Shown: piece by piece, positions 4,358-23,869 of the stretch
Layout of the letters: each line of letters opens with the position of its first letter
How positions within the stretch are numbered: position 1 is the stretch's first letter
NCBI RefSeq assembly: GCF_013449375.1
Contig: NZ_JACDRR010000020.1
Span: 62,001 to 126,000 of the forward strand
Length of the DNA: 64,000 bases
Source: Pectobacterium sp. CFBP8739
GTDB taxonomy: Bacteria > Pseudomonadota > Gammaproteobacteria > Enterobacterales > Enterobacteriaceae
Reading direction: 5' to 3'
Translations under genes and position numbers: made by a program
The notes under the pieces: model-generated
What the model was told of the DNA's origin: nothing
What the model saw: only the letters and a program-made list of their open reading frames with translations
The model's database searches: none

Positions 4358-5227
4358 ATGGCTCACGACCAATTACACCGTTACCTGTTTGAAAATTATG
4401 CCGTTCGTGGCGAACTGGTAACCGTTAACGAGACGTATCAACGTATTTTGACCAACCACGATTATCCGTCTGCGGTGCAAACGCTGCTGGGTGAAATGCT
4501 GGTTGCCACCAGCCTGTTGACGGCCACGCTAAAATTCAGCGGCGATATTACCGTTCAGCTTCAGGGCGATGGCCCACTGAAACTGGCAGTGATTAACGGC
4601 AACCACCAGCAGCAAATGCGCGGCGTTGCCCGCCTGCAAGGGGATATCGCACCTGGGAGTTCGTTGAAAGAAATGGTCGGCAATGGCTATCTGGTGATTA
4701 CCATTACGCCGACGGAAGGTGAACGTTATCAGGGCGTTGTTGGTTTAGAAGGTGAAACCGTTGCTGAATGTCTGGAAAGCTATTTCCAGCAGTCCGAACA
4801 GTTGCCGACGCGGCTGTTTATCCGTACCGGACAGCACGAAGGCAATCAGGCGGCCGCGGGGATGTTGCTTCAGGTGCTGCCTGCACAAGATGCCGATCGG
4901 AATGATTTTGATCATCTGGCGCAGCTCACCACCACGGTCAAAGCCGAAGAACTGTTTACCCTGCCTGCGACCGAGGTACTGTACCGTCTTTACCATCAGG
5001 AAGAGGTAACCGTGTACGAACCGCAGGATGTCGAATTCCGCTGCCACTGTTCACGCGATCGTTGCGCCGATGCATTAATGACGCTGTCCGATCAGGAAAT
5101 CAATGAAATGATCGAGCAAGATGGTGAAATCGATATGCACTGTGATTATTGTGGTACGCACTACTTGTTTAACTCGCTGGACATCCGCGCCATACGGCAC
5201 GATTCATCAGGAAATCTGTTGCATTAA
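4358..5227 (+). CDS. hslO: Redox-regulated chaperone Hsp33
   Basis: A 289-residue Hsp33. The four redox/zinc cysteines are visible near the C-terminus as CHC (in CHCSRDRC, about 232-239) and CDYC (about 264-267). When oxidised these form disulfides, release zinc and switch on the chaperone. Starts [20 protein letters not shown] as in E. coli. A strong hairpin terminator follows. The E. coli neighbour yhgE is missing between this gene and pckA. Confidence 0.95.
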
Positions 5228-5234
5228 TCGTTTT

Positions 5235-5262
5235 AACGGGTACGCAAGTACCCGTTTTATTT
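5235..5262 (+). terminator. Rho-independent terminator after hslO
   Basis: A perfect 9-bp stem AACGGGTAC / GTACCCGTT with a GCAA tetraloop, followed by TTATTTT. Confidence 0.85.
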
Positions 5263-5425
5263 TGCTTATTTTCCCATCTATAAACTGCCGTGATTATTTT
5301 TCAAACACCCTAAATAAGCAAAGTTATTAATGAATTTATTTAATTTTATGATTGCTATCGCGGTTAAAATAAGCTCACTCCCTACAATGTACTGGTAGTA
5401 TGGCTATCACTTGAGGAGTGGCAAC

Positions 5426-7045: not shown

Positions 7046-7071
7046 ACCGCTTGCAGGAAAACCCATAACGA

Positions 7072-7100
7072 AAAAGGCGCGGATTCCGCGCCTTTTAAGA
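7072..7100 (+). terminator. Terminator after pckA (probably bidirectional)
   Basis: GGCGCGG / CCGCGCC stem with an ATT loop, flanked by AAAAA on the left and TTTT on the right, so it could stop transcription on both strands. Confidence 0.85.
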
Positions 7101-7165
7101 TTGCTACAGGGACTGTCGAGCGGTAATAACGGATAGATCGTAAAGACGCTGTGAACACCTCCCTG

Positions 7166-7258
7166 TGCGCTCGGCTTGCGCAGATATGAATCTCATCCCT
7201 GAGATTCACTCTTTCAGAGCCGTCGCAAGCGACGTTCAAAAACGTTCCTGACGTTTTT
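7166..7258. repeat. Cluster of four consecutive short perfect hairpins
   Basis: In the 339-bp pckA-envZ gap four inverted repeats follow one another: TGCGC/GCGCA (7166-7182), GAATCTCA/TGAGATTC (7188-7207), CGTCGC/GCGACG (7221-7234) and AAAAACGT/ACGTTTTT (7238-7258). Loops are 2-7 nt and there is no open reading frame. It has the look of a dispersed intergenic element of soft-rot bacteria, but no second copy was noticed in this window. Confidence 0.6.
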
Positions 7259-7384
7259 GTCCATGGCGCAAACGCTTTACTCTTCTATTCCGTTACTACC
7301 GTTCCCGTTCGGCAAATAGATTGCCAACGGTCTGAAGACGTGGAATTACGCCTTTCCTCTTAATACTGAGACTGCACATAATAC

Positions 7385-9462
<2,078 letters not shown>

Positions 9463-9638
9463 TCTCTTTCTCCAAAGGCGTAATAGCGCCGACGCTGCTA
9501 TTGTTCAGAAACACACGAATGACTGACAGTCGTTTCTGGTATACATTCTAGGCAAAATTGTTACAAAGCATATTAAAATTCGTGTAATCAATCATTTCCT
9601 TTGCCGTCAGTCATAAAATAATCGGCGATTTACGGTGG

Positions 9639-9670
9639 TTGTCGCTCACGAAGATTGTCGTTTACGAAGA
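9639..9670. repeat. 16-bp tandem duplication inside an inverted repeat
   Basis: Two adjacent 16-bp units (TTGTCGCTCACGAAGA and TTGTCGTTTACGAAGA) are bracketed by CGGTGG (9633-9638) and CCACCG (9682-9687). They lie in the 333-bp gap upstream of ompR. No function is evident. Confidence 0.5.
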
Positions 9671-9741
9671 TTATAGTAACGCCACCGACAATAAAAAGGC
9701 ACGGTAGCGGCAAAAGCAGGAGAAAGAGAGAAAAGAGAGGA

Positions 9742-9770
9742 CGTTGCCACCCGGATCCAGAGTGGCAACG
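9742..9770 (-). terminator. Hairpin at the end of the siderophore operon
   Basis: Perfect 9-bp stem CGTTGCCAC / GTGGCAACG just downstream of the last minus-strand gene of the siderophore locus. The following minus-strand sequence is only moderately T-rich (CCTCTCTTTTCTC), so this is a probable rather than certain terminator. Confidence 0.55.
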
Positions 9771-9795
9771 CAAAGTGATTAACGCATCGCCGTAA

Positions 9796-10206
9796 TTAGC
9801 GCATCAGTTTATCCAGCACCACGCTCACCGACGGCAGCGCGGGCTGGAAAAGATGACGCGTGGTCTTGTAGGGAAACAAACCTTTTTCCGTCACAATGGT
9901 CTGCATAATCAGATTCTTGCAAAAAGGCTGTCCAGTCTTCCAGTGATAAACGGACACGCGAGGATCCTCATAATCGAGCAGCGCACAGGGGATGTGCTTT
10001 AACCCCAGCTCGGTGGCCGCACGTAGCCGATGGTTGCCATCCATAATAATCCCGGTCTCTTTCTCAATGGGTACCGGTGTCGTCCAGCAGCCACAGCGGC
10101 AAATATCCTCCATCAAACACTCCACGTTCGACATATCAACATTTTCAGAGGGAAGCAGGAACTGCACGGGCGTAAGGGCAATGTGGTAGCTCATACCTTC
10201 AAACAT
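9796..10206 (-). CDS. ParB/SbnI-like protein, putative serine kinase of the siderophore locus
   Basis: A 136-residue protein with a ParB-type nucleotidase/kinase fold signature: PVPIEKETGIIMDGNHRLRA (about 44-63), then GLKHIPCALLDYEDPRVSVYHWKTG. As I remember the SbnI sequence, the order of elements (DG-HR motif, VPV..., S-W-tryptophan segment) is the same. Family knowledge: S. aureus SbnI is a ParB-fold free serine kinase that supplies O-phosphoserine for staphyloferrin B, and it also regulates the sbn operon. This copy is about half SbnI length and lacks the C-terminal region. A strong Shine-Dalgarno (AGGAGGTGG) precedes the ATG. Last gene of the operon. Function is inference. Confidence 0.6.
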   Translation of the reverse strand: MFEGMSYHIALTPVQFLLPSENVDMSNVECLMEDICRCGCWTTPVPIEKETGIIMDGNHRLRAATELGLKHIPCALLDYEDPRVSVYHWKTGQPFCKNLIMQTIVTEKGLFPYKTTRHLFQPALPSVSVVLDKLMR

Positions 10207-10273
10207 TATCCACCTCCTGACGTAACGGTCTCGTGTAGCTCCGGTTTATGTACCGGAGCCGCCTCTTATTGAC

Positions 10274-11434
10274 TTACTGCGCAAGACTGACGAAATAGCC
10301 CGACTGATAATCAACCGGTAAAAACTGCTGATGAAGCTGGCGGAAAGTGTCATCCGCGTTGAGATCGCGGAATAGATCGGGATGGAACCACTCAGCCAGT
10401 TGCTGAATCGCGATGAAATCATAGGGGCCGTTGTAAAACTGATGCCAGATGGCATGGAATGCGCGTTTCTGTTTCGCAACGGTGTTGGTATACGCAGGCC
10501 GCCCCAAAAACCACTCAAGCCGCTTGCGCCCTTCCGTCATGTCCTGCCCCGGCCCCAACCCAATCCAGCGCCCACCGGGCACGAAGGCTTCAAAGTTGCC
10601 GCTGGTAATCACTACCACTTCCGGGTTTTCCACAATCACCTGTTCAGGGTGCATCTGCATAAAGGTGCTCGGCGCATTTTTTGCCGCAACGTTCTCGCCA
10701 CCGGCCAACTGCACGAATTTCCCGAAGTTATCCGGGCCGAACGTCAGGCAGCATTCATCGGTGTAGCCACCCAGTCGCTCAATGAACACGCGTGGTGAAC
10801 GCGGTTTTTTGGCCGCCAGCACGTCAGAAACGCGTTTCAGCTGCGCCTCACGAAACGCGAGAAAGGCTTCGGCGCGCGCTTCCTGATTAAACAGCTTGCC
10901 GAACAGGCGCATAGTCGGCGCGGTGTTTTCCAGCGGGTGATAGCGAAAATCGACATACATAATCGGAATACCGACGCTATCCAGTATCCGGTCATAGCCC
11001 GCATCGACAATCGACCGCTGCGCCTCAATGTTCATAATGATGACGTCCGGCTTCAGCGACACCGCCTGCTCCACGTCGAACGTGCCCTTTTCCGTGCCGT
11101 CAAACGTTGGGATTTTCGCCAGTTGAGGAAAACGATCGCGATACTGGTGCCACGTTGCCGGATCCGACTGAATCAGATCGCGCTTCCAGGCTACAATCCT
11201 TTTCGCCGGATCTTCCCGATCGAGCATCGCGACCAGATAAAGCTGACGCCCCTCGCCCAACATAACGCGCTGCACTGGCGTGTTGACTCTCACCTCACGC
11301 CCCAGCACGTCCTTGATGACAGTGGAGGTTTGTGCGGTTTGCTCAGCCTGCCCCACCAGCGGCGACAGGCCGACCATCAACAGCACACCCAGCAATAACC
11401 GACGGCAATGTTGCCGCGTCCAACGATTACACAT
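10274..11434 (-). CDS. Periplasmic iron-siderophore ABC substrate-binding protein
   Basis: About 386 residues. The Arg-rich N-terminus and hydrophobic stretch ending VGQAEQ look like a Sec signal peptide; the rest has the FepB/BtuF-type fold, with the family opening VIKDVLGREVRVNTPVQRVM, then ...LKPDVIIMN and an expected Trp/Arg-rich ligand site. It should carry ferric siderophore across the periplasm. No permease or ATPase gene is near, so it must use a transporter encoded elsewhere. The ATG at 11434 overlaps the MFS stop codon by 8 bp; an in-frame ATG at 11467 would add 11 residues. Confidence 0.8.
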   Translation of the reverse strand: MCNRWTRQHCRRLLLGVLLMVGLSPLVGQAEQTAQTSTVIKDVLGREVRVNTPVQRVMLGEGRQLYLVAMLDREDPAKRIVAWKRDLIQSDPATWHQYRDRFPQLAKIPTFDGTEKGTFDVEQAVSLKPDVIIMNIEAQRSIVDAGYDRILDSVGIPIMYVDFRYHPLENTAPTMRLFGKLFNQEARAEAFLAFREAQLKRVSDVLAAKKPRSPRVFIERLGGYTDECCLTFGPDNFGKFVQLAGGENVAAKNAPSTFMQMHPEQVIVENPEVVVITSGNFEAFVPGGRWIGLGPGQDMTEGRKRLEWFLGRPAYTNTVAKQKRAFHAIWHQFYNGPYDFIAIQQLAEWFHPDLFRDLNADDTFRQLHQQFLPVDYQSGYFVSLAQ

Positions 11435-12677
11435 TTTCGATATTTCCCTTCGTCGAGAGAGAGTCATGTTTTTCCGCCTGTCTCCGCAGGCGTCGTAGCA
11501 GCATCAGCGAGACCAGGAAGGTCACCAGATAGGCTGCTCCAACGCAGAAGAACAGCGAACGTAGTCCAGGGGAGTAGAGAACCACTCCGCCCAAAGCAAT
11601 GCCCAGAATCGAGGCAAACTGGCTGACGCTTTGCGCCACGCCGAGTAGGTAACCCTGCTGCCCATCCCCCGCGGCGCGGGAAATCAGCGCCATCAGAACC
11701 GGCGTCGTCGCCCCCAACAGCACGCCCCACAGGAAATACAACGGGATAAAAATCGCAATATTCAGGATCGTGGCGGCCGTCAACGTCACGATGGCGCAGG
11801 CCAGCATCACCACACACAGGCGGCTCAGCGTCTGCGACAGCGAGAGGTTTTCAAAATAGCGCGCCCATAGCGACGCAGAGACAATCACGCCGGTCGCCTG
11901 CAAGCCATAGCACAGGCCGATAATCCATTTATCCACCTGAAAGACGCCGTCCATATAGAGGGAAAACGGCGTTTGCGGAATCATGCGGCTGGTCAGCAGC
12001 AGGCCAGAAATCAGCAGCAGACCGGAAATCGGCGACAGTGCCCAGAGCCGCCTGCGGGGAGCGTTGTCCTGTGACGTCGTCTCAGGTGGAACAACAGGCA
12101 CCACCGGCGCAACATGGGGCAGGAACAGCGCCACGGTCATGCCGCACAGCGCACACAGGATCGCGGCACTCAGGTTGATCCAGAAGAAGTTCAGGTAATC
12201 GAGGATCAGCCCGCCGACAATCGCGCCCAGCAACGAGCCCACGTTGGTAGACACCTGAAGCCAGGCGAACAGCCGCGTACGCTGTAACGGACTGACGACC
12301 GCGACGCCGTAGGCCTGCGCGGGCGCGATATACCCCGCACAGGCACCCTGAATAAAACGCAGCGCGACGATCGTCCAGATGTCATTGGCCCACGCCAGCC
12401 CGAGCTGAGTTAACGCCAGCCCAAACAGCGCGCGGATCATCATGGCTTTGTTGCCCAGCCGATCGCCCATCCGTCCCCAGAAGGCGCTGGTCAGCATGAT
12501 GCCCAGCATCGGCCCGATGTACACGGCAACCCCCGCGATACTCAGTTCCGCACCGGACGACATACTTTCCAGATGCAGCGGCCAAAACGGCCCGCTCATC
12601 TCCATCGCCCCCATCGCCACCAGTTGCACGACAAACATAAAGTGGATGATGAACGCCACCTGCCCGCTTAAGCGCAT
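11427..12677 (-). CDS. MFS transporter, putative siderophore exporter (SbnD-like)
   Basis: A 416-residue major facilitator with about 12 hydrophobic segments and the MFS motif A variant FWGRMGDRLGNKAMM in the loop after TM2 (about residues 64-78). Its place between the biosynthetic genes and the binding protein matches the role of SbnD in staphyloferrin B export. Translationally coupled to the binding-protein gene. Substrate direction is inferred from context. Confidence 0.8.
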   Translation of the reverse strand: MRLSGQVAFIIHFMFVVQLVAMGAMEMSGPFWPLHLESMSSGAELSIAGVAVYIGPMLGIMLTSAFWGRMGDRLGNKAMMIRALFGLALTQLGLAWANDIWTIVALRFIQGACAGYIAPAQAYGVAVVSPLQRTRLFAWLQVSTNVGSLLGAIVGGLILDYLNFFWINLSAAILCALCGMTVALFLPHVAPVVPVVPPETTSQDNAPRRRLWALSPISGLLLISGLLLTSRMIPQTPFSLYMDGVFQVDKWIIGLCYGLQATGVIVSASLWARYFENLSLSQTLSRLCVVMLACAIVTLTAATILNIAIFIPLYFLWGVLLGATTPVLMALISRAAGDGQQGYLLGVAQSVSQFASILGIALGGVVLYSPGLRSLFFCVGAAYLVTFLVSLMLLRRLRRQAEKHDSLSTKGNIENV

Positions 12678-12714
12678 GTGTCAGCTCCTTCTGCGTCCAC
12701 AGCGTCACCCCGCC

Positions 12715-13872
12715 TCATTTCAGCCACTGCGGCGGGAAATAGTCAGGACGATCCTGCGTGGAGGCGCCCATGTAATCGCTGCACCACCGGTAGGTTTCCT
12801 CAATATACGGCACGCTAACCGCCAGATTCTCCGCGATGGTCACCAGCAGGCTCAGGCCGTAGGCAATATCTTCCTGAAACACCCGATGCTGCGTATCAAA
12901 CACGTACCCACCCGCATCATGCTGTCGCAGCGGCAGACCGATGCCGTGGTAAGCCTGATTGGTGCGCAGTACCGAGAGCATCGTGTGCGCATCGGCAATC
13001 TGATCGCCATAGGCATCGATAATCTCCTGCTTGAGCGGCAGTACCGAGTCCAACCGCACGCCGAGTCGCGTTTCCAGCGCCGCACACAGCTGCTGGTTCT
13101 CTTCATCCATGCGTTCCAGATAATAGGCACCGAGTTCCGGGCAATCATTCCACCAGCACAGCGGCTGCGGGAAAGGTCGAGCGTGCCACTGCCCATAGGG
13201 GCCGATCAGGCCATAAATCACCGCACTGTGCATAATCGGGTTACCCGGCGTCAGCGTGATTTCCAGATAATCCGGCAATAGCACCACGGGCGCGGAATAA
13301 AGCCGTTGCAACAGCGCCATCAGCGCCTGCTGGCGCGCTGCCGTTTCACGCCGATGCGTAGCCACATACAACGTGGATTTTTCGCCGCCCATTTTGATCG
13401 ACTGACCTGGCAGCAAATCAAACGCAATGTGTGCAACGTCCTTCATTCCCCAAATCACCGCGTTTGGCCGAGCGGCCAATTCACGTTCAGCGAGCCAGTC
13501 AAAGCCACAAAAACCGGGAATGGCGCCAACGTAAACCGGCTTGTCGACAGGCAGATGGGGAACGATCCGCGCCAGAAGATCGGAGCGGAAGTTGGCGGGA
13601 ACGGTGATAATCACGACATCCGCGTCGCGGCAGGCTTGCGCCGGATCGCAGGTGACGCAGTCCGGAGTCGCCGTTAGCGTCTCGCCATCCGGCAGCAGCG
13701 CGTGTAGCCGCTTACCGTGCTGTTGATAGGCTTCCGGCAGGCGCGGATGGCTGCCCAGCAGCGTCACCTTGACGTCCGGCAGTTGCTTAAACAGTACCGT
13801 GGTGAGATGGCCGGTCTTGCCGGCCCCGCAAATCACCACGTTAAGCGGCTGCCCGCTTAGCGCTTCGGTCAT
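12715..13872 (-). CDS. Opine (octopine/nopaline) dehydrogenase-family enzyme in the siderophore operon
   Basis: A 385-residue NAD(P)-dependent oxidoreductase. N-terminal Rossmann fold with CGAGKTGH (about 15-22) and DADVVIITVPA (about 83-93); C-terminal octopine-dehydrogenase helical domain with NPIMH (about 211-215, the expected catalytic His in the family's N-P-x-x-H) and QEDIAYGL. Opine dehydrogenases join or split an amino acid and a 2-oxo acid through a secondary amine. sbn clusters have SbnB at this step, an ornithine-cyclodeaminase-family protein that oxidises the SbnA product to 2,3-diaminopropionate and 2-oxoglutarate. An opine dehydrogenase run in reverse would do the same chemistry. 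Start at 13872 has AAGGAG at good spacing and lies 10 bp after the SbnA-like stop. The replacement idea is inference. Confidence 0.78.
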   Translation of the reverse strand: MTEALSGQPLNVVICGAGKTGHLTTVLFKQLPDVKVTLLGSHPRLPEAYQQHGKRLHALLPDGETLTATPDCVTCDPAQACRDADVVIITVPANFRSDLLARIVPHLPVDKPVYVGAIPGFCGFDWLAERELAARPNAVIWGMKDVAHIAFDLLPGQSIKMGGEKSTLYVATHRRETAARQQALMALLQRLYSAPVVLLPDYLEITLTPGNPIMHSAVIYGLIGPYGQWHARPFPQPLCWWNDCPELGAYYLERMDEENQQLCAALETRLGVRLDSVLPLKQEIIDAYGDQIADAHTMLSVLRTNQAYHGIGLPLRQHDAGGYVFDTQHRVFQEDIAYGLSLLVTIAENLAVSVPYIEETYRWCSDYMGASTQDRPDYFPPQWLK

Positions 13873-13882
13873 CCTTGACTCC

Positions 13883-14899
13883 TTAGCTTGCCTGCTCCAG
13901 AGCAATCGCGTTGCCCAACCAGCGATCCAGATCGTGCCATACGCCGCTATCTGTCAGATTACGCGCCGCCAGCCACTCTTCGTTAAACACCGTGTGCAGG
14001 TATTTTTCACCGCCGTCGGCGATCGCCAGCACGACGTTACCGCCGATACGATCCTGATAGATCAGTTCCAGCGCTTTATAGATCACCCCACCCGTCGAGC
14101 CGCCGACCAGCAGGCCGTAATGACGTGCGATATAGCGTGCCGTTTCAAATGCCTGCGTATCCGAAACCTGCTCGCCGCAGTCGATGCAGCTGTAATCCAG
14201 TACCAGCCCTACGGTATCTCCCGCGGGCGTACCAGTGCCGGACTGATAGTAAGGTTTGCCGGGGTGGCCGAAGACGATAGAGCCCACCGGTTCAACGGCA
14301 ATGGTCGTAATATCCGGGTTATGGACTTTCAGGCCGTGCGAAATACCGGTCATCGATCCGCCGGTGCCCACGCAGCCGACAAACGCATCGATCTTGCCAA
14401 TCTGGCTGAACAGCTCACGCACAAAATCAGCGTATCCGCCCGCATTCGCCGCGTTGTCCGACTGGTTCATAAACACCGCGCCGGGTATTTCCTGCGCCAG
14501 CTGTGCCGCCATACGCTGGCGTTCCACCACCGCCACTTCATCTTCACCGTAGTCGCCGGAGACATAGCGAATTTCCGCGCCGAGCGCGCGCATGATGGCA
14601 ATTTTGTCCTGTGCCGCGTGGTGATCGACCACGGCGATAAAGCGCAGGCCGTATTCGATCGACGCCAGCGCCAGCCCGATACCGGTATTCCCCGATGACG
14701 ACTCGACAATGGTGCCGCCGGGGCGGATTTTGCCTGACTTCAGCCCGGCAACAATCATGTTGCGCGCCATGCGATCCTTCATGCTGCCGCCGGGATTGTT
14801 CTTCTCCACTTTTAAAAACAAACGCGTATCCCCATAGGGAACCGGAATTTGTATAACGGGGGTATTACCAATCAAATCAGTTACTTTATTCAGGATCAT
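13883..14899 (-). CDS. PLP-dependent cysteine synthase-like enzyme (SbnA-like)
   Basis: A 338-residue fold-type II PLP enzyme. PLP lysine is K41 in GGSMKDRMARNM; the substrate loop is SSSGNTG (67-73) and the phosphate-binding loop is GCVGTGGSMTG. SbnA condenses O-phosphoserine with glutamate to give N-(1-amino-1-carboxyl-2-ethyl)-glutamate, a precursor of 2,3-diaminopropionate; the cluster context makes this more likely than cysteine synthesis. The ATG at 14899 (GGAG 8 bp upstream) starts 13 bp after the decarboxylase stop. It could still be an ordinary cysteine synthase or 2,3-DAP synthase. Confidence 0.82.
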   Translation of the reverse strand: MILNKVTDLIGNTPVIQIPVPYGDTRLFLKVEKNNPGGSMKDRMARNMIVAGLKSGKIRPGGTIVESSSGNTGIGLALASIEYGLRFIAVVDHHAAQDKIAIMRALGAEIRYVSGDYGEDEVAVVERQRMAAQLAQEIPGAVFMNQSDNAANAGGYADFVRELFSQIGKIDAFVGCVGTGGSMTGISHGLKVHNPDITTIAVEPVGSIVFGHPGKPYYQSGTGTPAGDTVGLVLDYSCIDCGEQVSDTQAFETARYIARHYGLLVGGSTGGVIYKALELIYQDRIGGNVVLAIADGGEKYLHTVFNEEWLAARNLTDSGVWHDLDRWLGNAIALEQAS

Positions 14900-14912
14900 G
14901 GTTCTGCTCCAT

Positions 14913-16316
14913 TCAGTTATCACTGGAAAAAATCAGCTCACCTTTCTTACCTTTGAACGCACACAAGCGCGCAGGCAGCGGATGTCGATGAAACGCGTTC
15001 TCCAGCAGGTCCATCTGGTATCCCGCCGTATTCGCGTAAATCAGTAAATCACCTGGCTGCGGCACGGTTCGAAAATGAATCAATCGGTTCGTAATGACAT
15101 CGTCGTCCAGACAGCTGTGTCCGGCGATCCAGGCCTTGCCCGGCATCGGAGGGGTGTCTTTTTTGACGGAAAAAACATGCAGAGGATCAATCAAAAACTC
15201 AGAGTTAAACCAGGTTTCACAGGCGCTGAAACTACTCCCTTCCACAAACACGACGTGGTTGCCATCCGGCTGGCGGCGCGTGCGCGTGACGCGAAACACC
15301 GTAATCGCACTTTGGTCAGCCAGACTACGTCCCGGCTCTATCGCCAGAATCAGGCCGTGCTGCTTGAGCACGTCTGCCACGCGTTTCCCCCCGATTGAGG
15401 CTGACAGAAATGCCTCAAGATAGTCAGCTGCTGAACGCTCGCCACCATACGGATAAAACGAGGCCGGCACCTGACCGTGGCGGTAGTCTGCCCCACTCTG
15501 CTTCGCTAAATAGTCCTGATAGCGTGAAGCCGGAAGATATTGAATCGGCAATCCCCCACCGATATCAATAATGGCGGGCTGTAATCCCTTTGAGCGCGCC
15601 CGCTCCAGCAACGGCAGCACCTCAGCCAATGCGGCCACGCGGGTGTCGGGCTCATAGCCGCCCAGATGGAAATGGAAACCCTCCAGATGAAGCGCATTCA
15701 GTCTGGTACTCAACGTCTTCAGGCAAATAGCGATCTCATCAGCCAGCATGCCAAACCGGCTGGCCTGAGCGAACGACGGGCGATAGCGCAGCAAAACCCG
15801 CACCGGCTCCGTCACACGCAGCAAATCTGCCAGCGCGAGCAACTCGTCGAACTCTTCCGGCGAATCCAGCACGATAAGAGCGCGGTGATAAACCAGCGCC
15901 GTCAGAAATTCGCGCGTCTTCGCCGGACCGGTGGCGCACAGCCGCGTGCCGTCACAGCCTGCCCGCAGTGCATCTTTCAGTTCCTGTAAGCTGGAAACAT
16001 CCACGCCGACGCCCGCGTTAACGGCCGCCTGTACCAGCCCCGGTGATTTGTTCACCTTGGCACCGTAGTACAGACGGCAGTCCACATCATGACGCTGCAA
16101 CACGGTTCGCAATGCTGCGATATTGTTGGCAACTGTGTGCGGCCAGACAATATTCAGCGGCGACCCATACTGCTCAACCAGCCATGACAACCTTTGCGGC
16201 GAGTTGAAAAGAAACTGCTCAATCTCACTATCCAGATAAGGCGTCAGTCTCTCAGGCCAGTGGGCCTGTGCGACAGAGGGGGAAGACACTGCGGCAAAGC
16301 TAAACAGGTTGCTCAT
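14913..16316 (-). CDS. PLP-dependent decarboxylase (SbnH / diaminopimelate-decarboxylase fold)
   Basis: A 467-residue fold-type III (alanine racemase-like) decarboxylase. PLP lysine is K87 in YYGAKVNKSP; HFHLGG and DIGGGLPIQY are the usual glycine-rich and beta-barrel motifs; GHSCLDDDVI near the C-terminus carries the expected active-site Cys. In staphyloferrin B, SbnH decarboxylates the citryl-diaminopropionate intermediate. Lies between the receptor and the SbnA-like gene with tight spacing (41 and 13 bp). Substrate is inferred from context. Confidence 0.8.
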   Translation of the reverse strand: MSNLFSFAAVSSPSVAQAHWPERLTPYLDSEIEQFLFNSPQRLSWLVEQYGSPLNIVWPHTVANNIAALRTVLQRHDVDCRLYYGAKVNKSPGLVQAAVNAGVGVDVSSLQELKDALRAGCDGTRLCATGPAKTREFLTALVYHRALIVLDSPEEFDELLALADLLRVTEPVRVLLRYRPSFAQASRFGMLADEIAICLKTLSTRLNALHLEGFHFHLGGYEPDTRVAALAEVLPLLERARSKGLQPAIIDIGGGLPIQYLPASRYQDYLAKQSGADYRHGQVPASFYPYGGERSAADYLEAFLSASIGGKRVADVLKQHGLILAIEPGRSLADQSAITVFRVTRTRRQPDGNHVVFVEGSSFSACETWFNSEFLIDPLHVFSVKKDTPPMPGKAWIAGHSCLDDDVITNRLIHFRTVPQPGDLLIYANTAGYQMDLLENAFHRHPLPARLCAFKGKKGELIFSSDN

Positions 16317-16357
16317 CGCTATCTCCTTAACGTTCGGTTCCTGAAAAATGCCTATCC

Positions 16358-18571
16358 TTAGAAATCAACCGCAACGGACAGCATCAGCGTCCGCGGAGTT
16401 CCTTGCGATACCGTGCTGAACGATGTCACGCCAGACCAGTAATTGCGGTCAAAGGCGTTGAGTACATCCGCACGGAACGTGGTGGGTGCGTTGTAGATTC
16501 GCGTCTTGTAGCGCGCGCCGAAATCAACGGTGGTCCAGGAAGGAATCGACTGGGTATTGATGGTGTTAACGTTCTGCTTCCCGTTATGGACGACGTTGGC
16601 ATTGAGCGTCAGATCGCGCAGGAACGGCAGGTCATATTCCACCCCGGCGTTAGCCTGAAAACGCGATGTGCCCGGCGCGCGCTTGCCCTGCGCACCCGGC
16701 GTCACGCTTTTGGTTAGCTCGGCATCCAGCAGCATCACGCCACCGGTCAGACGCAGATCCTCCAGCGGTGAACCAACCACATCCAGCTCGATACCCCGAT
16801 TGCGCTGTTCGTTAGCGGTAACGAACTCACTACCTGGGCCATTAACCAGCGCGCCGCTCGGCTTGGTGATCTGGAAGACACTCAGCGTAGAGATCGTCCC
16901 CAGCGCGTCCACTTTCACCCCAGCTTCGTACTGTTTGCTCTTATACGGTGACAGCACTTGACCGGCGTTGCTCGCATTCGCAGGCGCAATATCTCCTTTG
17001 CTCAGCCCTTCAATATAATTGGCGTAGAGCGAGACGTGCTGCCAGGGTTTCACCACCACACCGACCATCGGCGTGATTGCATTTTTGTCGTAGGACGATG
17101 ATGGCGCGCTATTACCAGGAACAAAGTTATCCGACTTGATCTGCTGATAACGCAGCCCGCCCGTGACTTGCAGCGCATCGTTCCAGAAGCCGAGCGTATC
17201 CGCCAGCGCGATACCTGACAGCGCAGTGGAAGAGCGTTTGCTAATCGTTGCAGGGGCGGGAATGTCAACGGGAGACATATATACGGGGTTGTAGATATTA
17301 GTATTGAGGTCTGGACCAATTACACTCGTTGTTGCATGACGATCCCGGTAATAACTTGTTTGGGCTGATAGTTTGTGTGTCACCGAGCCCGTTTCAACGT
17401 CAGCTCTAATACCCGTAGCTAAATTATAACGACTAACGGCGGCGCGGTAATTTACGAGATAGGAGGCATTACTACTCGTTCTACTCACATCGCCATTATT
17501 GTTGGTTACTTGCGGTACTTGCTCTGATAAACGACTGACATGTGCACCAGAACCGCCCAGATCGCTAAACCAGGTGACGTTATCCGCTAAATCGTATTCG
17601 GTATGCAGCAACACCGACTGATCTTTGGAATGCCAGAAGCCCCACGGCTGAGAGATATTGGTGTTGCCATCCGGCGCATCGGGCACGGTCACGCCAGCCG
17701 CAAACGAATAGGGTCGCGACGGCGCTCGGGTTTTCAGATGCTGGGTGATGAGATCCAATGTGGCGCGGAAACGTTCTGACGAGAAATCCAGCCCGAGTGA
17801 GCCCACCTGCGTGCGTTTGTCGCTACCATCCCATACCGTATCGCCGTAGCCGTAATTGCCGTTAAAACGCACGCCGAGCAGATTGTTATTTTCCAGCGCA
17901 TAGACGCGGGAAATATCCGCATGCTGGGTGAGTTGGGAATCAGACTGCCAGCTGGTAGTGAGGCGGGTCAAATTGCCGACAGTGGTCGGGCGTTTGGTGA
18001 CGGCGTTAATCACGCCGCCCACGCTGCTGTTCGGCGACAGCCCATACAGCAGCGCCGACGGCCCTTTCAGCACTTCCACCCGCTCGATGTAGTCAGTCAT
18101 CAGCTGGTAGTTGGGCGCAACACCGTAGACGCCGTTCATGGCGATGTCGCTCAGGTTTCCTTCATTGAGTGGAAAACCGCGAATGTAGTAGGAATCCAGC
18201 AGACCGCCCTGAGAACTGCTCACTCGCACCGATGCGTCGTGCGCAACCACCTGCCCCAGCGTCTGTGCCTGTTTATTTTCAATAAACGATGAGGTCATGT
18301 TGCTGACGTTAAACGGCGTATCCATCACGTCCTTTTTGCCCAGCAGCCCGGTGCTGGACGACCGCGCAGACATGCCGCCCGCGACCAGTCCCTGTACGGC
18401 ATCCGCGTCTTTGGCTTCCACCACGATAGTGGAATCATCGCGCTCGCCCGTTGCAGACTGCGCAGGTATCGCGATGCCGCTTAGCACAGCCGTGACGGCG
18501 ATGGCCAACGCGGAGGGAATAGGAAAACGAGTCTTCCCGATAGGTGGAGTGAAGTTCTTCCTGGCGTTCAT
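16358..18571 (-). CDS. TonB-dependent ferric siderophore receptor
   Basis: A 737-residue outer-membrane receptor. Signal peptide, probable TonB box DDSTIVVEA just after it, a plug domain (VEVLKGPSALLYG and SVGGVINAVTKRP), and a 22-strand-type barrel ending with Phe (LSVAVDF), the signal for BAM insertion. FhuE/FpvA-like in general appearance. Start taken at 18571 (MNARKNFTPP), which gives the best signal peptide; a longer in-frame opening reaches 18649. Located second in the operon, 81 bp after the NIS synthetase. Confidence 0.88.
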   Translation of the reverse strand: MNARKNFTPPIGKTRFPIPSALAIAVTAVLSGIAIPAQSATGERDDSTIVVEAKDADAVQGLVAGGMSARSSSTGLLGKKDVMDTPFNVSNMTSSFIENKQAQTLGQVVAHDASVRVSSSQGGLLDSYYIRGFPLNEGNLSDIAMNGVYGVAPNYQLMTDYIERVEVLKGPSALLYGLSPNSSVGGVINAVTKRPTTVGNLTRLTTSWQSDSQLTQHADISRVYALENNNLLGVRFNGNYGYGDTVWDGSDKRTQVGSLGLDFSSERFRATLDLITQHLKTRAPSRPYSFAAGVTVPDAPDGNTNISQPWGFWHSKDQSVLLHTEYDLADNVTWFSDLGGSGAHVSRLSEQVPQVTNNNGDVSRTSSNASYLVNYRAAVSRYNLATGIRADVETGSVTHKLSAQTSYYRDRHATTSVIGPDLNTNIYNPVYMSPVDIPAPATISKRSSTALSGIALADTLGFWNDALQVTGGLRYQQIKSDNFVPGNSAPSSSYDKNAITPMVGVVVKPWQHVSLYANYIEGLSKGDIAPANASNAGQVLSPYKSKQYEAGVKVDALGTISTLSVFQITKPSGALVNGPGSEFVTANEQRNRGIELDVVGSPLEDLRLTGGVMLLDAELTKSVTPGAQGKRAPGTSRFQANAGVEYDLPFLRDLTLNANVVHNGKQNVNTINTQSIPSWTTVDFGARYKTRIYNAPTTFRADVLNAFDRNYWSGVTSFSTVSQGTPRTLMLSVAVDF

Positions 18572-18652
18572 CAACAAAGTTATCCATCTCAAAATGAGGA
18601 GTGAAAAAGATGCTCCCGTTTTCAGCCTGTGAGGCGGGAGCATCGCCATACA

Positions 18653-20554
18653 TCACGATCCGATGCGGGTTTCTTCCTCTTCAATGAGGAAGGGATTGCT
18701 CAGACCGTGCTGAATCCGATAGTCGCGATATTCCTGGATGTGCATGCGCAGCAGCGAACGCGTATACCAGGGCTGCGTCAAAAACATGTCGCGTTCGGTC
18801 TGCCACAGCTCGTCATCAACGCGCGACTTCACGGCGTCAAACGCCGCGGCGGTTTCTTCTTTCATCACCTGCCACAACCGGGCATCGGCAAAGCCGTATT
18901 CCGCGCTGAGCGCCAGCGCCAGTTCGTGCAGGTGGCTGACAAAGCAGGCATCGACGACAAACATCCGCACGGGTTCGATGTCGTCTTCAAAGACCGTGGG
19001 CAGAATGCCGGGCCAGACGTAGGGTTGCAGATGATGACCGCGCTGACGCAGCAGCGGTGCATAAGTGCGCCCGTCGCCGAAATCACGGATTAATAATCCC
19101 TGCGCGACACCTTCCGGTGAAAAGAGGATCTGACTGTTCTGCTGATGCGCTTCCAGCCCGATGCCGTACAGCAGATAGATCGCGATAACAGGCCGGGTTA
19201 CGGCGCGGACGTATTGGCGGAACCACGCATCAGGGCCAAGCCCGGACAGCGTCACCAGCTCGGTGAACAGCGGCTGGTCGCGGTGAGGCAGTGCCGTAAA
19301 CAGCGTGGCGACGGTCACGGGCAGCGCGCCGTCAGTGCGTTCATAAATTCGAGCATCGCGGAAAACAACGGAGAGATGTTTGCCCGGCGCGTCATCCTGA
19401 TGAACTGCGTGCTTGTAGTGGAACGCCGTCTCTTCGCGGAAAAACGCCAGCCGCTGCTCAAACCCGCCTTCCTGCGCCAGAATCGCTTCGATAATGGTGC
19501 TGATACGTGGCCCCATGTGGATGGATTTCGCCTGTAGGCTGCGCATTTCGCTAGTCATCCAGATGGCGACGGGGAGTTTGATGAAAGGGGAAGAAGGCGG
19601 TTCAACGGGCAAAACGGTACGGAACGACATACCCGGTAGCGTGATGAGATCGGGGCCGTCGGTAAGCAGAATCCCTTCGGCGATCTCATCCGCATAGTGG
19701 GATTTCACCCAGTTTTCCAGATGCCAACTGTGGATGGGCAGCGGGAGCCACTGCGTCTCATCCAGCCCTTGTTGATTCAGGCGCTGCTTCCAGTCCTGCC
19801 AGAGCGCGGGGAATGCCTGAGCAAACCACGAATGAAAATCATCGACGTGCGGCATGGATTCCACATACGCCATATCGCGGCGCAACGCGGTAATACGCAG
19901 CGGCACGCGGGCGTTAAATTCGGGTGACAGCTGCTGGACGTCTTCGTCACTCAGTCCGGGGCGGGATTTCCAGGTCGGGTAGTAAGGGTGGCCTTCCAGC
20001 GATCCCCACTGATCGAGAAACATGGCGGCATCGCGAATGCTGAGCTGCCGACGCAGCCACGGCGTGAAAGCGTTCTGCCCGTCCTGCTGCATGGCATCGG
20101 CCACCTCAGCACGCCACTGGCAACGATAGCGCCGGGCGTTGGTATCATTACGAATGCTGTTACCGACGTCTTTTTTCAGGCCACTGATGCCGCTCTCGTC
20201 AGGATGAAAATCGAAATTGTCGCGAAGTAAATCAATCAATCGCTCGTGGCTGGTAACGGGAAAAGACGCTCCATCTGAATGAATGAGATAAATATTTCCA
20301 TTATTAATATAGGTGTTTGCCGGTGCTGGCGAAATATCATCAAATTTCAATATACCTTTGCCACCCTGCAAAGCCAGCGTTGCTGCCCTGGAATTACCCT
20401 CAATAAATATCAGGTTATTTTTATTCAAAATTCCTTCTGCGAAAAAGCAGCGAATCAATCGCCTTAACGCATTTTTATTTGAGTAATCAGAGAGAAAATC
20501 ATCTACATCCTGATGTATATCCCTGTGTTTAATTTCGTCAGCCTTGATATTCAT
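18653..20554 (-). CDS. NRPS-independent siderophore (NIS) synthetase, IucA/IucC family
   Basis: A 633-residue IucA/IucC-type synthetase. The ATP-binding signature EGHPYYPTWKSRPG is near residues 187-200 and the conserved YGIGLEAHQQNS lies in the C-terminal half, followed by a FhuF-like region. Such enzymes adenylate a citrate carboxylate and join it to an amine or alcohol. It is the only synthetase in the locus, whereas staphyloferrin B uses three. The ATG at 20554 has GAGGAG upstream. The first about 110 codons are markedly AT-rich against the rest of the operon. First gene after a Fur-box-like site. Confidence 0.88.
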   Translation of the reverse strand: MNIKADEIKHRDIHQDVDDFLSDYSNKNALRRLIRCFFAEGILNKNNLIFIEGNSRAATLALQGGKGILKFDDISPAPANTYINNGNIYLIHSDGASFPVTSHERLIDLLRDNFDFHPDESGISGLKKDVGNSIRNDTNARRYRCQWRAEVADAMQQDGQNAFTPWLRRQLSIRDAAMFLDQWGSLEGHPYYPTWKSRPGLSDEDVQQLSPEFNARVPLRITALRRDMAYVESMPHVDDFHSWFAQAFPALWQDWKQRLNQQGLDETQWLPLPIHSWHLENWVKSHYADEIAEGILLTDGPDLITLPGMSFRTVLPVEPPSSPFIKLPVAIWMTSEMRSLQAKSIHMGPRISTIIEAILAQEGGFEQRLAFFREETAFHYKHAVHQDDAPGKHLSVVFRDARIYERTDGALPVTVATLFTALPHRDQPLFTELVTLSGLGPDAWFRQYVRAVTRPVIAIYLLYGIGLEAHQQNSQILFSPEGVAQGLLIRDFGDGRTYAPLLRQRGHHLQPYVWPGILPTVFEDDIEPVRMFVVDACFVSHLHELALALSAEYGFADARLWQVMKEETAAAFDAVKSRVDDELWQTERDMFLTQPWYTRSLLRMHIQEYRDYRIQHGLSNPFLIEEEETRIGS

Positions 20555-20719
20555 AACCACTCCTCATACCGATAAAACCAGTAAAAACCGATTGCAGTAA
20601 CGTATAAAAGGGTGTCGTTAAATCTCGGGTTAACACGTTCCGAAATTTAATAAAAATGTCGTGATAGATGGATTGAAAAATAATGAACGGAAAGCTAGCA
20701 TATTAACCACTGTAATGTA

Positions 20720-20738
20720 AATAGCTATCATTCTTATT
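20720..20738. promoter_or_regulatory. Candidate Fur box between divergent siderophore genes
   Basis: AATAGCTATCATTCTTATT agrees at 14 of 19 positions with the classic enteric Fur site AATGATAATCATTCTCATT. It sits in the 250-bp AT-rich gap between the NIS synthetase operon and the divergent CitE-like gene, placed to repress both. Confidence 0.6.
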
Positions 20739-20804
20739 CGCAATTAATGAGTTAAATTTTAATAAAACTGCATTTAATCAATTAATTAACAGAAGGAGAG
20801 CAGC

Positions 20805-21686
20805 ATGGAACACGCTAAAACCTATCTCTTTGTGCCTGGTAATGCGCCCCACCGCTTTCAACAAGCCGTCTGCTGCGGTGCCGATGCCGTGATATTTGAT
20901 TTAGAAGATGCTGTTCATCCTGATGAAAAAAACCAGGCTAGAGAAAATATTATCCAATGGGATAAAAACGATACTCCCGTCTCTGAAATAAATTGCAAAA
21001 GATATATACGTTTAAACAAATTTGGTTCAGTGGAGTTCAGTGAAGATATCGAGTTTCTGAATAGGCTAAATAATAAAGAAAAATTAAGAAATAACGCCCC
21101 ACCCAAACATAAAACAGCCAAATGGGAAATTGTTTTACCTAAAATAGAATCCGCAGAAATGCTGCATGATGCGCGGGAAATGATAAATCGTAATAGATCG
21201 GAAGCGGTTCATATTATTGCGATAATTGAAACCGCGCAGGGGTTGCATCATGCAGAAGAGATTTGTGCAGCAGGGGTAGAAAGAGTCGCATTTGGCTCAT
21301 TGGATTTCTCACTCGATATTCATTGCGATCAATCCTTGTATGCCTTGCTGTATGCCAGAAGCCGCATTGTATTAGCCTCCAGACTGGCCGACTTGCCACC
21401 ACCGATAGATTGCGTCAATCCTGACTTCACGCATCACGATCGGGTGTTAGCTGACGCATTACATGCACGCTCGCTCGGCTTCTCAGCCAAACTCTGTATT
21501 CATCCCTCGCAGATCGATGCCGTTCAGCAGGCATTCGCTACGGATCGCAGCAAAATAGACTGGGCAAAGCAGGTTCTGAAAGCAGCCGAACACAGCTACG
21601 CTTTCCAGATAAACGGTGAGATGGTGGATTTACCCGTCATTGAGCAGGCCAGACAGCTATTGCGGGCGCAAAATGTAGATGACTAA
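20805..21686 (+). CDS. HpcH/HpaI-CitE family lyase/aldolase of the siderophore locus
   Basis: A 293-residue CitE-like TIM-barrel enzyme: LFVPGNAPHRFQQA at the N-terminus, GADAVIFDLEDAVHPDEK (acyl-CoA/metal site), IIAIIETAQGLHHAEEI, AFGSLDFSLDI and CIHPSQIDAV are all family hallmarks. sbn clusters carry SbnG, an HpcH/HpaI-family enzyme making citrate from oxaloacetate and acetyl-CoA for the siderophore. This protein belongs to the same superfamily but resembles CitE/malyl-CoA lyases, so it may be an SbnG analogue. Preceded by AGAAGGAGAGC. The first half is AT-rich. Reaction is inferred. Confidence 0.72.
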   Translation: MEHAKTYLFVPGNAPHRFQQAVCCGADAVIFDLEDAVHPDEKNQARENIIQWDKNDTPVSEINCKRYIRLNKFGSVEFSEDIEFLNRLNNKEKLRNNAPPKHKTAKWEIVLPKIESAEMLHDAREMINRNRSEAVHIIAIIETAQGLHHAEEICAAGVERVAFGSLDFSLDIHCDQSLYALLYARSRIVLASRLADLPPPIDCVNPDFTHHDRVLADALHARSLGFSAKLCIHPSQIDAVQQAFATDRSKIDWAKQVLKAAEHSYAFQINGEMVDLPVIEQARQLLRAQNVDD

Positions 21687-21769: not shown

Positions 21770-22249
21770 TTATGACTGAACGTACTCAATCGAATTAACA
21801 AACCACTCGCGCGGGCCGTCTGGCGTGTTCACGGTGAACTCCTCATCAACCGCTTTTTTCAGCATGGCGCGCGCCATCGGGGAATCGATCGAAATATAGT
21901 CTTTATTGTCGCCGTAGATCTCGTCCGGGCCGACAATCCGAAAACGCTTCACCTCACCTTGTTCATTCTCGATCTCTACCCAGGCGCCAAAGAATACGCT
22001 GCCATCCTGCTGCGGCGAATAATCAACGATTTTCAATTCCGTCAGGCATTTTCTGAGGTAGCGCACACGCCTGTCGATCTGGCGCAATAAACGCTTGTTA
22101 TAGGTGTAATCCGCATTTTCTGAACGATCCCCCAGGCTCGCAGCCCAGGAGACAATTTTCGTAATTTCCGGGCGCTTTACATTCCAGAGATGGTCATGCT
22201 CTGCCCGCAGTTTGTCATACCCCTCGCGGGTAATCAGATTGGTTTTCAA
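21770..22249 (-). CDS. greB: Transcript cleavage factor GreB (TTG start)
   Basis: A 159-residue GreB: N-terminal coiled coil with the basic patch and acidic tip (LGDRSENADYTYNKRLLRQIDRRVRYL) and a C-terminal FKBP-like domain (YSPQQDGSVFFGAWVEIE ... DYISIDSPMARAML). It rescues backtracked RNA polymerase by stimulating cleavage of the nascent RNA. The family N-terminus MKTxLxTREGY aligns with a reading that begins at TTG (22247-22249); no ATG or GTG is available in frame before the upstream stop. The TTG overlaps the hipA stop as TTGA, so translation is probably coupled. Orientation relative to ompR is reversed from E. coli. Confidence 0.9.
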   Translation of the reverse strand: MKTNLITREGYDKLRAEHDHLWNVKRPEITKIVSWAASLGDRSENADYTYNKRLLRQIDRRVRYLRKCLTELKIVDYSPQQDGSVFFGAWVEIENEQGEVKRFRIVGPDEIYGDNKDYISIDSPMARAMLKKAVDEEFTVNTPDGPREWFVNSIEYVQS

Positions 22250-23544
22250 GTCATTAACCCCGTTAGGCTCTTAGTGCGTAAGCTGTCCGGCGTACCTTCA
22301 AAAATAAAAGGGTTGAAAAACATCCGGCCCCAAAACAGCTTACGATCCACTTCGCTCAATGCGACTTCATCGCAGATGCTTTCCCAGCATACACGCACCG
22401 TTTCTATCTGATGCATGATGATCTCAATAGCTTCAGCTTCGCTCAGCAGAAATTTAGGTGCAGCCGCCAGACAGACAGCGAAATTGCTCATCCTGTTTTC
22501 ACCCGTGATCAACATTGCCTGCGTCGCCTCATTGCCCGCCCGATTCTGCGGGCAAATATCATAGGCTGGAGTCAGCTTTAGTGTTCGGCCATCCCAGAAT
22601 GCCGCGTGGTTTCGGGCATGATCGTCGGTGTTTCCGCAGATGATGTTGAAGACCAGACGGCCAAACAGCTCACGCAGCGTCGCTTTCGGTTCGTCGAAAC
22701 GTTGCCGGATGATGTCCGAGAATTCTTCGTAGCTCGCATATCTCGCCATCATTTCATCAAGGCCGAAAAGCGTCAGTGCAGAGACCATTAGCCTGCGTTT
22801 CCAGCCACCTTCTGTTTTCATACGGTCAAAACGTTCTATCAGAATAACGTCCTTCCCCGCCGTCTGGCGAAAGTGCACCGGAGCCACATTTAAACCAATA
22901 CTCGCAGCCAGCCGCATAGCAATGTATTCAGCTTTAACGACGTTATAGGTATCCGTCGAGGACGAAAATTTTGCGATGAACTTATGGTTCTCATCTTCGA
23001 TCATCGCTTTCGGCCGAGCCCCCCCCAACGAACTCCCATGGAAAAGTGCTTGATCAAGCTCAGGCGTCAACAAGACACCGTTTTCCACCATAGTGGCCGC
23101 AATCATCAACTCTTCAAGAGAAGCATTTTGAGCTGAACGTGGGACATACTCTGTCGGCGACGCCTGAAAATCGAGCCCGCCAATTCTGTTTGAACCGGAC
23201 TCAAGCAAATATGTCAATTCATCCAGCGTACTGCTATCTGCTCCCCTGCCTCTGACACCCATAAGTCGATTAAGGATGACCCTGCGTCCCCATGCGTCAG
23301 GCGCGGCATCGCGTAATGCACTCGCCTGCCATAGGCCCGCCGCTGGCGGTATAGCACCACGCATTAACGGCAGTTCAGGTTCATAGATAGGGATCGCGTC
23401 TTTTCGCTCCAAATAGTTACGACCATAATTGAAAATGAGTCGGTCGCCGTCCCGGCTCAATAAACCGGCCACAACAGGCTTCGTCGCATCAGGCAACCAG
23501 ATCCATACATAGGCTTTGTCGACAGCGTTATCAGAAGTCATCAT
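22246..23544 (-). CDS. HipA-like serine/threonine kinase toxin
   Basis: A 432-residue HipA-fold kinase. Visible motifs: GSSLGGARPKAMIED (glycine-rich ATP loop, about 170-184), IERFDR, catalytic loop NTDDHARNHAAFW and metal-binding PAYDICP. HipA-type kinases phosphorylate translation components (GltX in the E. coli case) and are neutralised by a partner HTH protein. The start (MMTSDN) overlaps the hipB-like 3' end by 14 bp, the usual antitoxin-first arrangement. The stop overlaps the greB start. All kinase motifs look intact. The exact target is unknown. Confidence 0.85.
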   Translation of the reverse strand: MMTSDNAVDKAYVWIWLPDATKPVVAGLLSRDGDRLIFNYGRNYLERKDAIPIYEPELPLMRGAIPPAAGLWQASALRDAAPDAWGRRVILNRLMGVRGRGADSSTLDELTYLLESGSNRIGGLDFQASPTEYVPRSAQNASLEELMIAATMVENGVLLTPELDQALFHGSSLGGARPKAMIEDENHKFIAKFSSSTDTYNVVKAEYIAMRLAASIGLNVAPVHFRQTAGKDVILIERFDRMKTEGGWKRRLMVSALTLFGLDEMMARYASYEEFSDIIRQRFDEPKATLRELFGRLVFNIICGNTDDHARNHAAFWDGRTLKLTPAYDICPQNRAGNEATQAMLITGENRMSNFAVCLAAAPKFLLSEAEAIEIIMHQIETVRVCWESICDEVALSEVDRKLFWGRMFFNPFIFEGTPDSLRTKSLTGLMT

Positions 23545-23869
23545 TCACGACCTTTTTAGAATGATGTACAGCGCGCGGCAGAAGAGAAAGTGTTTTCTCC
23601 GTGTTGGCAATATGAAGTGCCATTGCGGATTGGTCTGCGGTAAAAAGAGGGACACCAACAAGGGTAGCCAGCTCAAAAACCGCGCCAATTGAACATCCCA
23701 TATCTCCTTCCTCTGCGCGATAGACTAAGCCCCGTGATACACCTGCCCGTTCAGCTAATTCTTCCACTGTCATATTACGTTCGATCCTCGCGCTGCGAAG
23801 CATCAACCCGAGTAAACGAGCTGCGTCACGGCTGTAGCGAGAATATGTTCGAGCAGAAGGTTTCGCCAT
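23531..23869 (-). CDS. HipB-like XRE-family antitoxin/repressor
   Basis: A 112-residue protein with a helix-turn-helix of the XRE type: LRSARIERNMTVEELAERAG, then VSRGLVYRAEEGD (about 26-60). Its place upstream of and overlapping the HipA-like kinase gene marks it as the cognate antitoxin and autorepressor. The C-terminal about 25 residues extend past the HTH and could contact the kinase. Four matching palindromic sites upstream are its likely operators. Confidence 0.82.
   Translation of the reverse strand: MAKPSARTYSRYSRDAARLLGLMLRSARIERNMTVEELAERAGVSRGLVYRAEEGDMGCSIGAVFELATLVGVPLFTADQSAMALHIANTEKTLSLLPRAVHHSKKVVNDDF

Follow-up and report, generated by a model that had tools for sequence, protein, structure and literature searches.

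An operon at positions 9796–21686 of the window, a 64,000-nt stretch of the genome of Pectobacterium sp. CFBP8739, probably makes a rhizobactin-family siderophore of the aminopolycarboxylate class, and in Pectobacterium the products are most likely rhizobactin and rhizobactin B. Eight minus-strand genes (9796–20560) and one divergent plus-strand gene (20805–21686) make up the operon, and all are intact. They encode a nonribosomal peptide synthetase-independent siderophore (NIS) synthetase, a TonB-dependent receptor, a pyridoxal 5′-phosphate (PLP) decarboxylase, an SbnA-like synthase, an octopine/opine dehydrogenase (ODH), a major facilitator superfamily (MFS) transporter, a binding protein, an SbnI/SerK-like protein and, divergently, a CitE-like lyase (Table 1). 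A sequence-only reading of this DNA had recognised a siderophore operon here, and every gene that it named is present and uninterrupted, in the order it gave. The building blocks of rhizobactin and rhizobactin B, namely ethylenediamine, alanine, lysine, and malate or citramalate, match this set of enzymes. We consider it likely that the operon type at large is the rhizobactin pathway, with the proteobactin, Pectobacterium and rhizobial plasmid systems making the same family of compounds. Rhizobactin was described in 1984–85, and we take it to hold L-lysine and D-alanine.

The connection between the operon and these compounds runs through Pseudomonas sp. FEN, which secretes rhizobactin (C15H27O8N3) and rhizobactin B (C16H29O8N3), as determined by mass spectrometry and nuclear magnetic resonance (Kuegler et al. 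2020, PMC7676072). In rhizobactin B citramalic acid replaces malic acid, alanine and citramalic acid signals appear in the FEN data, and the siderophore carries its alanine unit on ethylenediamine (PMC7676072). The FEN genome holds the full gene set of the operon, the CitE-like gene included, and the one IucA_IucC gene found in that genome lies inside it; likewise, the one IucA_IucC gene of the window genome is the operon's own. The reactions proposed below give C15H27N3O8 and C16H29N3O8 exactly, with computed [M+H]+ values of 378.1871 and 392.2027, and the masses observed for FEN are 378.1866 and 392.2020 (PMC7676072).

From gene content, conservation, co-occurrence, presence in a characterised producer, mass balance and residue differences we infer a route of five ordered steps. 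The SbnI/SerK-like protein would make O-phosphoserine, and the SbnA-like enzyme would join the three-carbon serine unit to the α-amine of L-lysine, giving N2-(2-amino-2-carboxyethyl)-lysine. The PLP decarboxylase would remove the serine-unit carboxyl from this intermediate to leave an ethylenediamine bridge, and the ODH would reductively condense the free primary amine with pyruvate, creating the N-(1-carboxyethyl) 'alanine' end through an opine linkage. The NIS synthetase would then form the amide at lysine N6 with malate, for rhizobactin, or with citramalate supplied by the CitE-like enzyme, for rhizobactin B. Because PLP needs an amine that is still free, the decarboxylase should act before the ODH.

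The individual enzymes are consistent with these roles. Membership of the ODH in the PF02317 opine/octopine dehydrogenase family (103.1 bits) is borne out by its helical domain and its His and Asp residues, and its nearest solved sequence is the octopine dehydrogenase of Pecten (3c7a, E = 1.5e-21). H215, R330 and D335 are invariant in 79/79 aligned rows and pair with residues of the Pecten enzyme that are presumably catalytic. Several ODHs use pyruvate, and a catalytic His-Asp dyad has been named for these enzymes (PMC10787698). The nearest solved sequence to the NIS synthetase is AsbB (E = 6e-32); similarity to AcsD is weak (E = 1.8e-6), so the substrate residues reported for AcsD (PMC3323832) were set aside. 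The SbnI/SerK-like protein matches the free serine kinases 5x0b to 5x0e (E = 9.3e-7 to 4.1e-6) and is likely a serine kinase that supplies O-phosphoserine, while the MFS transporter is the likely siderophore exporter. The CitE-like protein matches an acyl-CoA lyase beta chain (8khl, E = 5.3e-39) and a mitochondrial citrate lyase beta-like protein (5vxc, E = 1.2e-24), and RipC is its best NCBIfam model. RipC, the C–C lyase model of itaconate degradation, acts on citramalyl-CoA. Given these nearest relatives, a source of citramalate within the operon makes sense, and the enzyme could combine acetyl-CoA with pyruvate to yield citramalate, or with glyoxylate to yield malate.

In SbnH, the decarboxylase of staphyloferrin B synthesis, R304, S308, W309, K347 and H379 surround the citryl group (PMC7857480). 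In an alignment of the window protein with those of 79 loci, where identity to SbnH is low and one locus was dropped as it has no near-full-length decarboxylase, rows with a letter show S at R304 (79/79), T at S308 (79/79), W at W309 (78/79), D or E at K347 (76/78) and E at H379 (78/78). The window decarboxylase has S364, D405 and E439 at the R304, K347 and H379 positions, profile alignment yields an identical pairing of residues, and K87, taken as the PLP lysine, is present in 80/80 rows. Three basic residues of SbnH are therefore serine or acidic in this group, and such residues would be a better fit for lysine, a cationic substrate, than for a citryl group, as judged from sequence.

The genes travel together across a broad range of bacteria. 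Scanning genome contigs with an ODH alignment gave 89 relatives, the best 80 of which are the named loci counted here. Among same-family genomes 9/295 have an ODH match at E ≤ 0.001, the window genome included, with six of these at E < 1e-12; among genomes of the class there are 3/369, comprising the window genome and two weak matches. By ODH the nearest named loci belong to P. carotovorum (96%) and P. brasiliense (95%), and taxa represented among the 80 loci include Pectobacterium, Samsonia, Budvicia, Proteus, Providencia, Arsenophonus, Pseudomonas, Burkholderiales, Methylobacterium, Thalassospira and rhizobia. The NIS, decarboxylase, SbnA-like and ODH genes all occur together, whole or in pieces, in 79/80 loci, so that their grouping is not a matter of chance; the single exception (L077) is a contig that begins inside the ODH gene. 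Across 77 loci where all five proteins are near full length, pairwise ODH distances correlate at r = 0.91–0.97 with those of four others (SbnA-like, decarboxylase, NIS and MFS), a correlation to which shared host ancestry contributes. In 73/80 loci no more than 100 bp lies between the end of the SbnA-like gene and the ODH gene (72 by script, plus L099, with its ODH at 3453). In the other seven, an SbnI-like gene intervenes (L046, L056, L066 and L068), the locus is broken (L058) or rearranged (L074), or it is the cut contig L077. The four intervening genes may tie serine phosphorylation to the step of the SbnA-like enzyme and the ODH. Operon genes lie in pieces in L018, L019, L023, L058 and L090, which are two small genomes, Pectobacterium sp. 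PL152, an Arsenophonus endosymbiont and Providencia stuartii NCTC11800.

Rhizobia may provide a second connection to the compound: the original discovery of rhizobactin was in Sinorhizobium meliloti DM4, and the DM4 compound contains malate (PMC7676072). The ODH matches 46 plasmid records, four of them S. meliloti plasmids of 256–316 kb. On pSINME01 of S. meliloti AK83 the operon encodes SbnI-like, Y4yA decarboxylase, cysteine synthase-like, ODH, IucA/IucC, MFS, binding and TonB receptor proteins, and the stretch shown there has no CitE gene. The pSymA and pSymB plasmids of S. meliloti 1021 belong to the plasmid collection searched and are not among the 46 records; this strain is named as a maker of rhizobactin 1021 (PMC9694258). 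The same 2022 review places rhizobactin under hydroxamates and, in a table, under catechol, which conflicts with its aminopolycarboxylate structure. On the symbiosis plasmid pNGR234a of Sinorhizobium fredii NGR234 (L134), the same operon lies at 4192–11237, with nolW/nopX on one side and nopL on the other; these are annotated as nodulation and effector genes and belong to a secretion region.

An operon of this type has been known as a siderophore operon through pbt of P. mirabilis, and what we propose anew is the likely product and a role for each enzyme. As described by Himpsl in 2010 (via PMC11026637), pbt comprises a divergent CitE-like gene (pbtI) and genes for an NIS synthetase (pbtA), a TonB receptor, a decarboxylase, a PLP enzyme, an octopine/opine/tauropine dehydrogenase, an MFS transporter, a binding protein and a hypothetical protein; it is iron-repressed, and the closest homologues of its NIS synthetase are in Pectobacterium (PMC11026637). 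In P. mirabilis ATCC 29906 (L069) we find the pbt gene set in the same order as in the window. The account of proteobactin differs from ours: the review section predicts a product of the hydroxycarboxylate class, giving neither a structure nor a stepwise pathway, and the Proteus locus is taken to include two ABC transporter genes (PMC11026637).

Several observations weigh against the rhizobactin assignment. Kuegler et al. tied the compound to rhbAB homologues instead (PMC7676072), and the words 'dehydrogenase', 'octopine', 'NIS' and 'synthetase' never occur in the main text of that paper; our own link between operon and compound in FEN is one of presence and exclusion rather than of a mutant. 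We found no published assay of an enzyme from this operon, and a genome of S. meliloti DM4 was not found either, no such name existing in the taxonomy. The NIS synthetase of pbt has been placed with Sinorhizobium Y4xN in the type B clade, whose members use 2-oxoglutarate, and the pbt CitE is thought to supply oxaloacetate (PMC11026637). Some ODHs use 2-oxoglutarate in place of pyruvate, and ODHs are strongly specific for L-amino acids as amine donors (PMC10787698), which conflicts with a proposed donor that is a primary amine lacking its own α-carboxylate. Of the three residues named for O-phosphoserine selectivity in SbnA, R132, Y152 and S185 (PMC12414870), the synthases keep the first (R135, alongside K49), and Y152 and S185 are changed to S and G (S155 and G186) in 79/79 rows; the serine donor may thus be another ester, which weakens the first step of the route. 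A CitE gene was found in 35/80 loci (all enterobacterial loci but L036, those of Pseudomonas and one from Bosea) and not in the other 45, among them the Burkholderiales and the remaining alphaproteobacteria; five of these 45 loci are short. An SbnI-like gene was not found in 7/80. Such loci may differ in how precursors are supplied or in the acyl unit.

That Pectobacterium makes another aminopolycarboxylate built on the same plan, with for example citrate in the place of malate or citramalate, or another amino acid in the place of lysine, is the alternative that survives best, though we regard it as unlikely. It would fit the best NCBIfam model of the NIS synthetase, which is the rhizoferrin enzyme FslA at 267.3 bits (below the cut-off of 1000), and the fact that the ODHs of the window and FEN are only 61% identical. 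Against it, the CitE-like gene, a candidate source of citramalate or malate, is kept in both Pectobacterium and FEN, and the decarboxylase residues compared above are the same in FEN and the window. A mirror image of the rhizobactin route, in which alanine is the nucleophile of the SbnA-like enzyme and the ODH couples a 2-oxo acid derived from lysine to what the decarboxylase releases, gives the same formula and so shares the mass balance, and the oxo-acid partner of ODHs does vary (PMC10787698). This route is improbable: it needs an enzyme that makes the oxo acid, of which there is none among the nine proteins, and the R-selectivity reported for ODHs (PMC10787698) would produce a D-lysine centre in conflict with the L-lysine and D-alanine presumed above.

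The sequence-only reading had favoured another role for the ODH, that of a replacement for SbnB in a staphyloferrin B-like locus. Running backwards, the ODH would free L-2,3-diaminopropionate and 2-oxoglutarate from the SbnA product, N-(2-amino-2-carboxyethyl)-L-glutamate, and the NIS synthetase and the decarboxylase would complete a citryl-ethylenediamine siderophore. ODH reactions are reversible. The ODH gene, counted from its likely start at ATG 13872, stands 10 bp behind the SbnA-like stop codon (13883–13885), just as that reading described, and the close spacing of the pair in 73/80 loci also speaks for a shared reaction of this kind. The operon has no SbnB, as claimed, and none was found elsewhere in the genome: none of the nine operon proteins belongs to the ornithine-cyclodeaminase (OCD) family, and the search for an sbnB homologue elsewhere in the genome returned one OCD gene, adjoining a threo-3-hydroxyaspartate ammonia-lyase gene, whose best NCBIfam model is the iminosuccinate reductase BhcD (221.6 bits, cut-off 500) and whose SbnB score is 93.9 (cut-off 326.9). 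That OCD gene sits in a cluster of the beta-hydroxyaspartate type, and a BhcB/BhcC/BhcD-like beta-hydroxyaspartate cluster lies outside the operon in the window genome (L001, 317–3456). SbnB is also missing over its cut-off from 77/80 ODH-bearing genomes; in the other three (1/30 plus 2/50) its coordinates fall beyond those of the ODH loci, in a comparison that did not match contigs by number to names. Among genomes of the phylum, 2/398 have SbnB over the cut-off.

Comparison with a locus that has a true SbnB argues against such a replacement, which we judge to be very doubtful. In that cluster (L129) SbnB scores 407.8 bits and the adjoining SbnA 430.5, both over their cut-offs, there are two NIS genes, and the decarboxylase matches 6knh, the sequence of the S. 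aureus SbnH structure, at E = 1.6e-103. The window synthase fails the SbnA model (Table 1), being 34% and 31% identical to two SbnAs beside SbnB and 33% identical to L101, a member of the cysteine synthase family encoded in the window genome; the window decarboxylase matches 6knh at E = 4.7e-5 and is 21% identical to SbnH of the SbnB-bearing cluster; and the operon has one NIS gene. As such, genes of the types that the earlier reading called 'SbnA-type' and 'SbnH-type' are present, but the labels are loose. The residues near the citryl group of SbnH are not kept save W309, profile comparison of the ODH with true SbnB finds no similarity (probability 0.3%), and the FEN siderophore's building blocks are reported without diaminopropionate or citrate (PMC7676072). 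The R-selectivity reported as a trend for ODHs (PMC10787698) would moreover be at odds with the L-Glu centre of the SbnA product, and the replacement is therefore not favoured. Nor does the staphyloferrin B-like label hold, since SbnB, an SbnA score above the cut-off, the SbnH residues near the citryl group (all but W309) and three NIS activities (SbnC, SbnE and SbnF) mark that pathway and were not found here. What does find favour is the other option raised by the same reading, addition of a 2-oxo acid to give an opine-type end group, because the operon occurs in a strain whose siderophore bears alanine on ethylenediamine. Bis-citryl-ethylenediamine was considered separately as a product and rejected, its m/z of 409.1089 not being among the FEN masses.

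The proposed rhizobactin operon can be set beside further known systems. With staphyloferrin B (sbn) it has in common a PLP beta-replacement enzyme, a PLP decarboxylase of the same fold family, NIS chemistry, an SbnI/SerK-like gene and an MFS exporter; it differs in lacking SbnB, in its single NIS synthetase, in a synthase below the SbnA cut-off, in the changes at most citrate-near SbnH residues, and in its CitE-type lyase. The 'sbn' of Methylobacterium aquaticum 22A, with two NIS genes and sbnB (PMC9301485), is a different type of cluster. Rhizoferrin operons (FslA/FigA, FslC/FigC) similarly have one NIS synthetase and one decarboxylase, along with an exporter like the FslB-like MFS transporter here, but the FslA, FslB and FslC models all fall far below cut-off in our operon, which has an extra synthase, an ODH and CitE. 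Staphylopine and pseudopaline use nicotianamine-synthase-like enzymes and another ODH family. In these opine metallophores the metal chelator is completed when an ODH couples a nicotianamine-like amino acid to an oxo acid (PMC10787698). In the present case a PLP beta-replacement enzyme and a decarboxylase would provide the backbone, with an NIS amide.

Table 1. Genes and intergenic region of the siderophore operon in the window
Feature	Coordinates	Strand	Evidence
NIS synthetase (IucA/IucC and FhuF domains), 635 aa	18653..20560	-	PF04183 E 2.8e-55; PF06276 E 1.2e-34
TonB-dependent siderophore receptor	16358..18649	-	TIGR01783 337.3 bits (cut-off 223.5)
PLP decarboxylase, relative of Y4yA type	14913..16316	-	PF02784 E 5.9e-22
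SbnA-like PLP beta-replacement enzyme	13883..14923	-	PALP E 1.7e-65; TIGR03945 237.5 bits, below SbnA cut-off 349.95
Octopine/opine dehydrogenase (ODH) family enzyme	12715..13905	-	PF02317 E 1.8e-29; likely start ATG 13872, 385 aa
MFS transporter, FslB (rhizoferrin exporter)-like	11427..12677	-	MFS_1 E 2.7e-45; NF041040 FslB 181.9 bits, below cut-off 600
Periplasmic siderophore-binding protein	10274..11467	-	PF01497 E 6.4e-12; ferrichrome/ferrioxamine B transporter model 221.1 bits, below cut-off 374
SbnI/SerK-like protein	9796..10206	-	SerK model E 1.1e-10, 41.1 bits, below cut-off 380
Divergent CitE-like HpcH/HpaI lyase	20805..21686	+	PF03328 E 7.1e-33; best NCBIfam RipC 152.5 bits, below cut-off 375
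Divergent intergenic region, possible Fur-like motif	20561..20804		Alignment of window and 10 loci

In the intergenic region between the divergent genes, a typed Fur consensus finds its best match, 16/19, in Budvicia (L095), at an alignment position common to the window and 10 loci. The best match of the window itself, 12/19, is within chance, being equalled or beaten by 260/500 single-base shuffles, so that only the position shared across loci speaks for a Fur box. A strict Fur-box search of the region found none, and a 13-base pattern allowed 3 mismatches was uninformative. Near the operon, a HipA-type protein and an overlapping upstream helix-turn-helix gene, likely a HipBA pair, occupy 22246–23869 on the minus strand; two carbohydrate phosphorylases are encoded at 47875–50439 and 59903–62365 of the window, one of them beside a 4-alpha-glucanotransferase.

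Within the open-licence part of PubMed Central, no paper linking rhizobactin to an opine dehydrogenase or to proteobactin was found, and an assignment may be in print elsewhere. An assignment of rhizobactin to its genes was likewise not found in this searchable literature, and PMC10609062 and PMC7849696 gave no information on the pathway. If the assignment is true, it provides the genes and a route for an aminopolycarboxylate siderophore known since the 1980s and gives a likely identity for proteobactin. It would also warn against 'staphyloferrin B-like' labels for such operons, whose 80 named genome records range across enterobacteria, Burkholderiales and rhizobia, and would reveal one more way in which nature arrives at an ethylenediamine chelator, here by means of an opine linkage.

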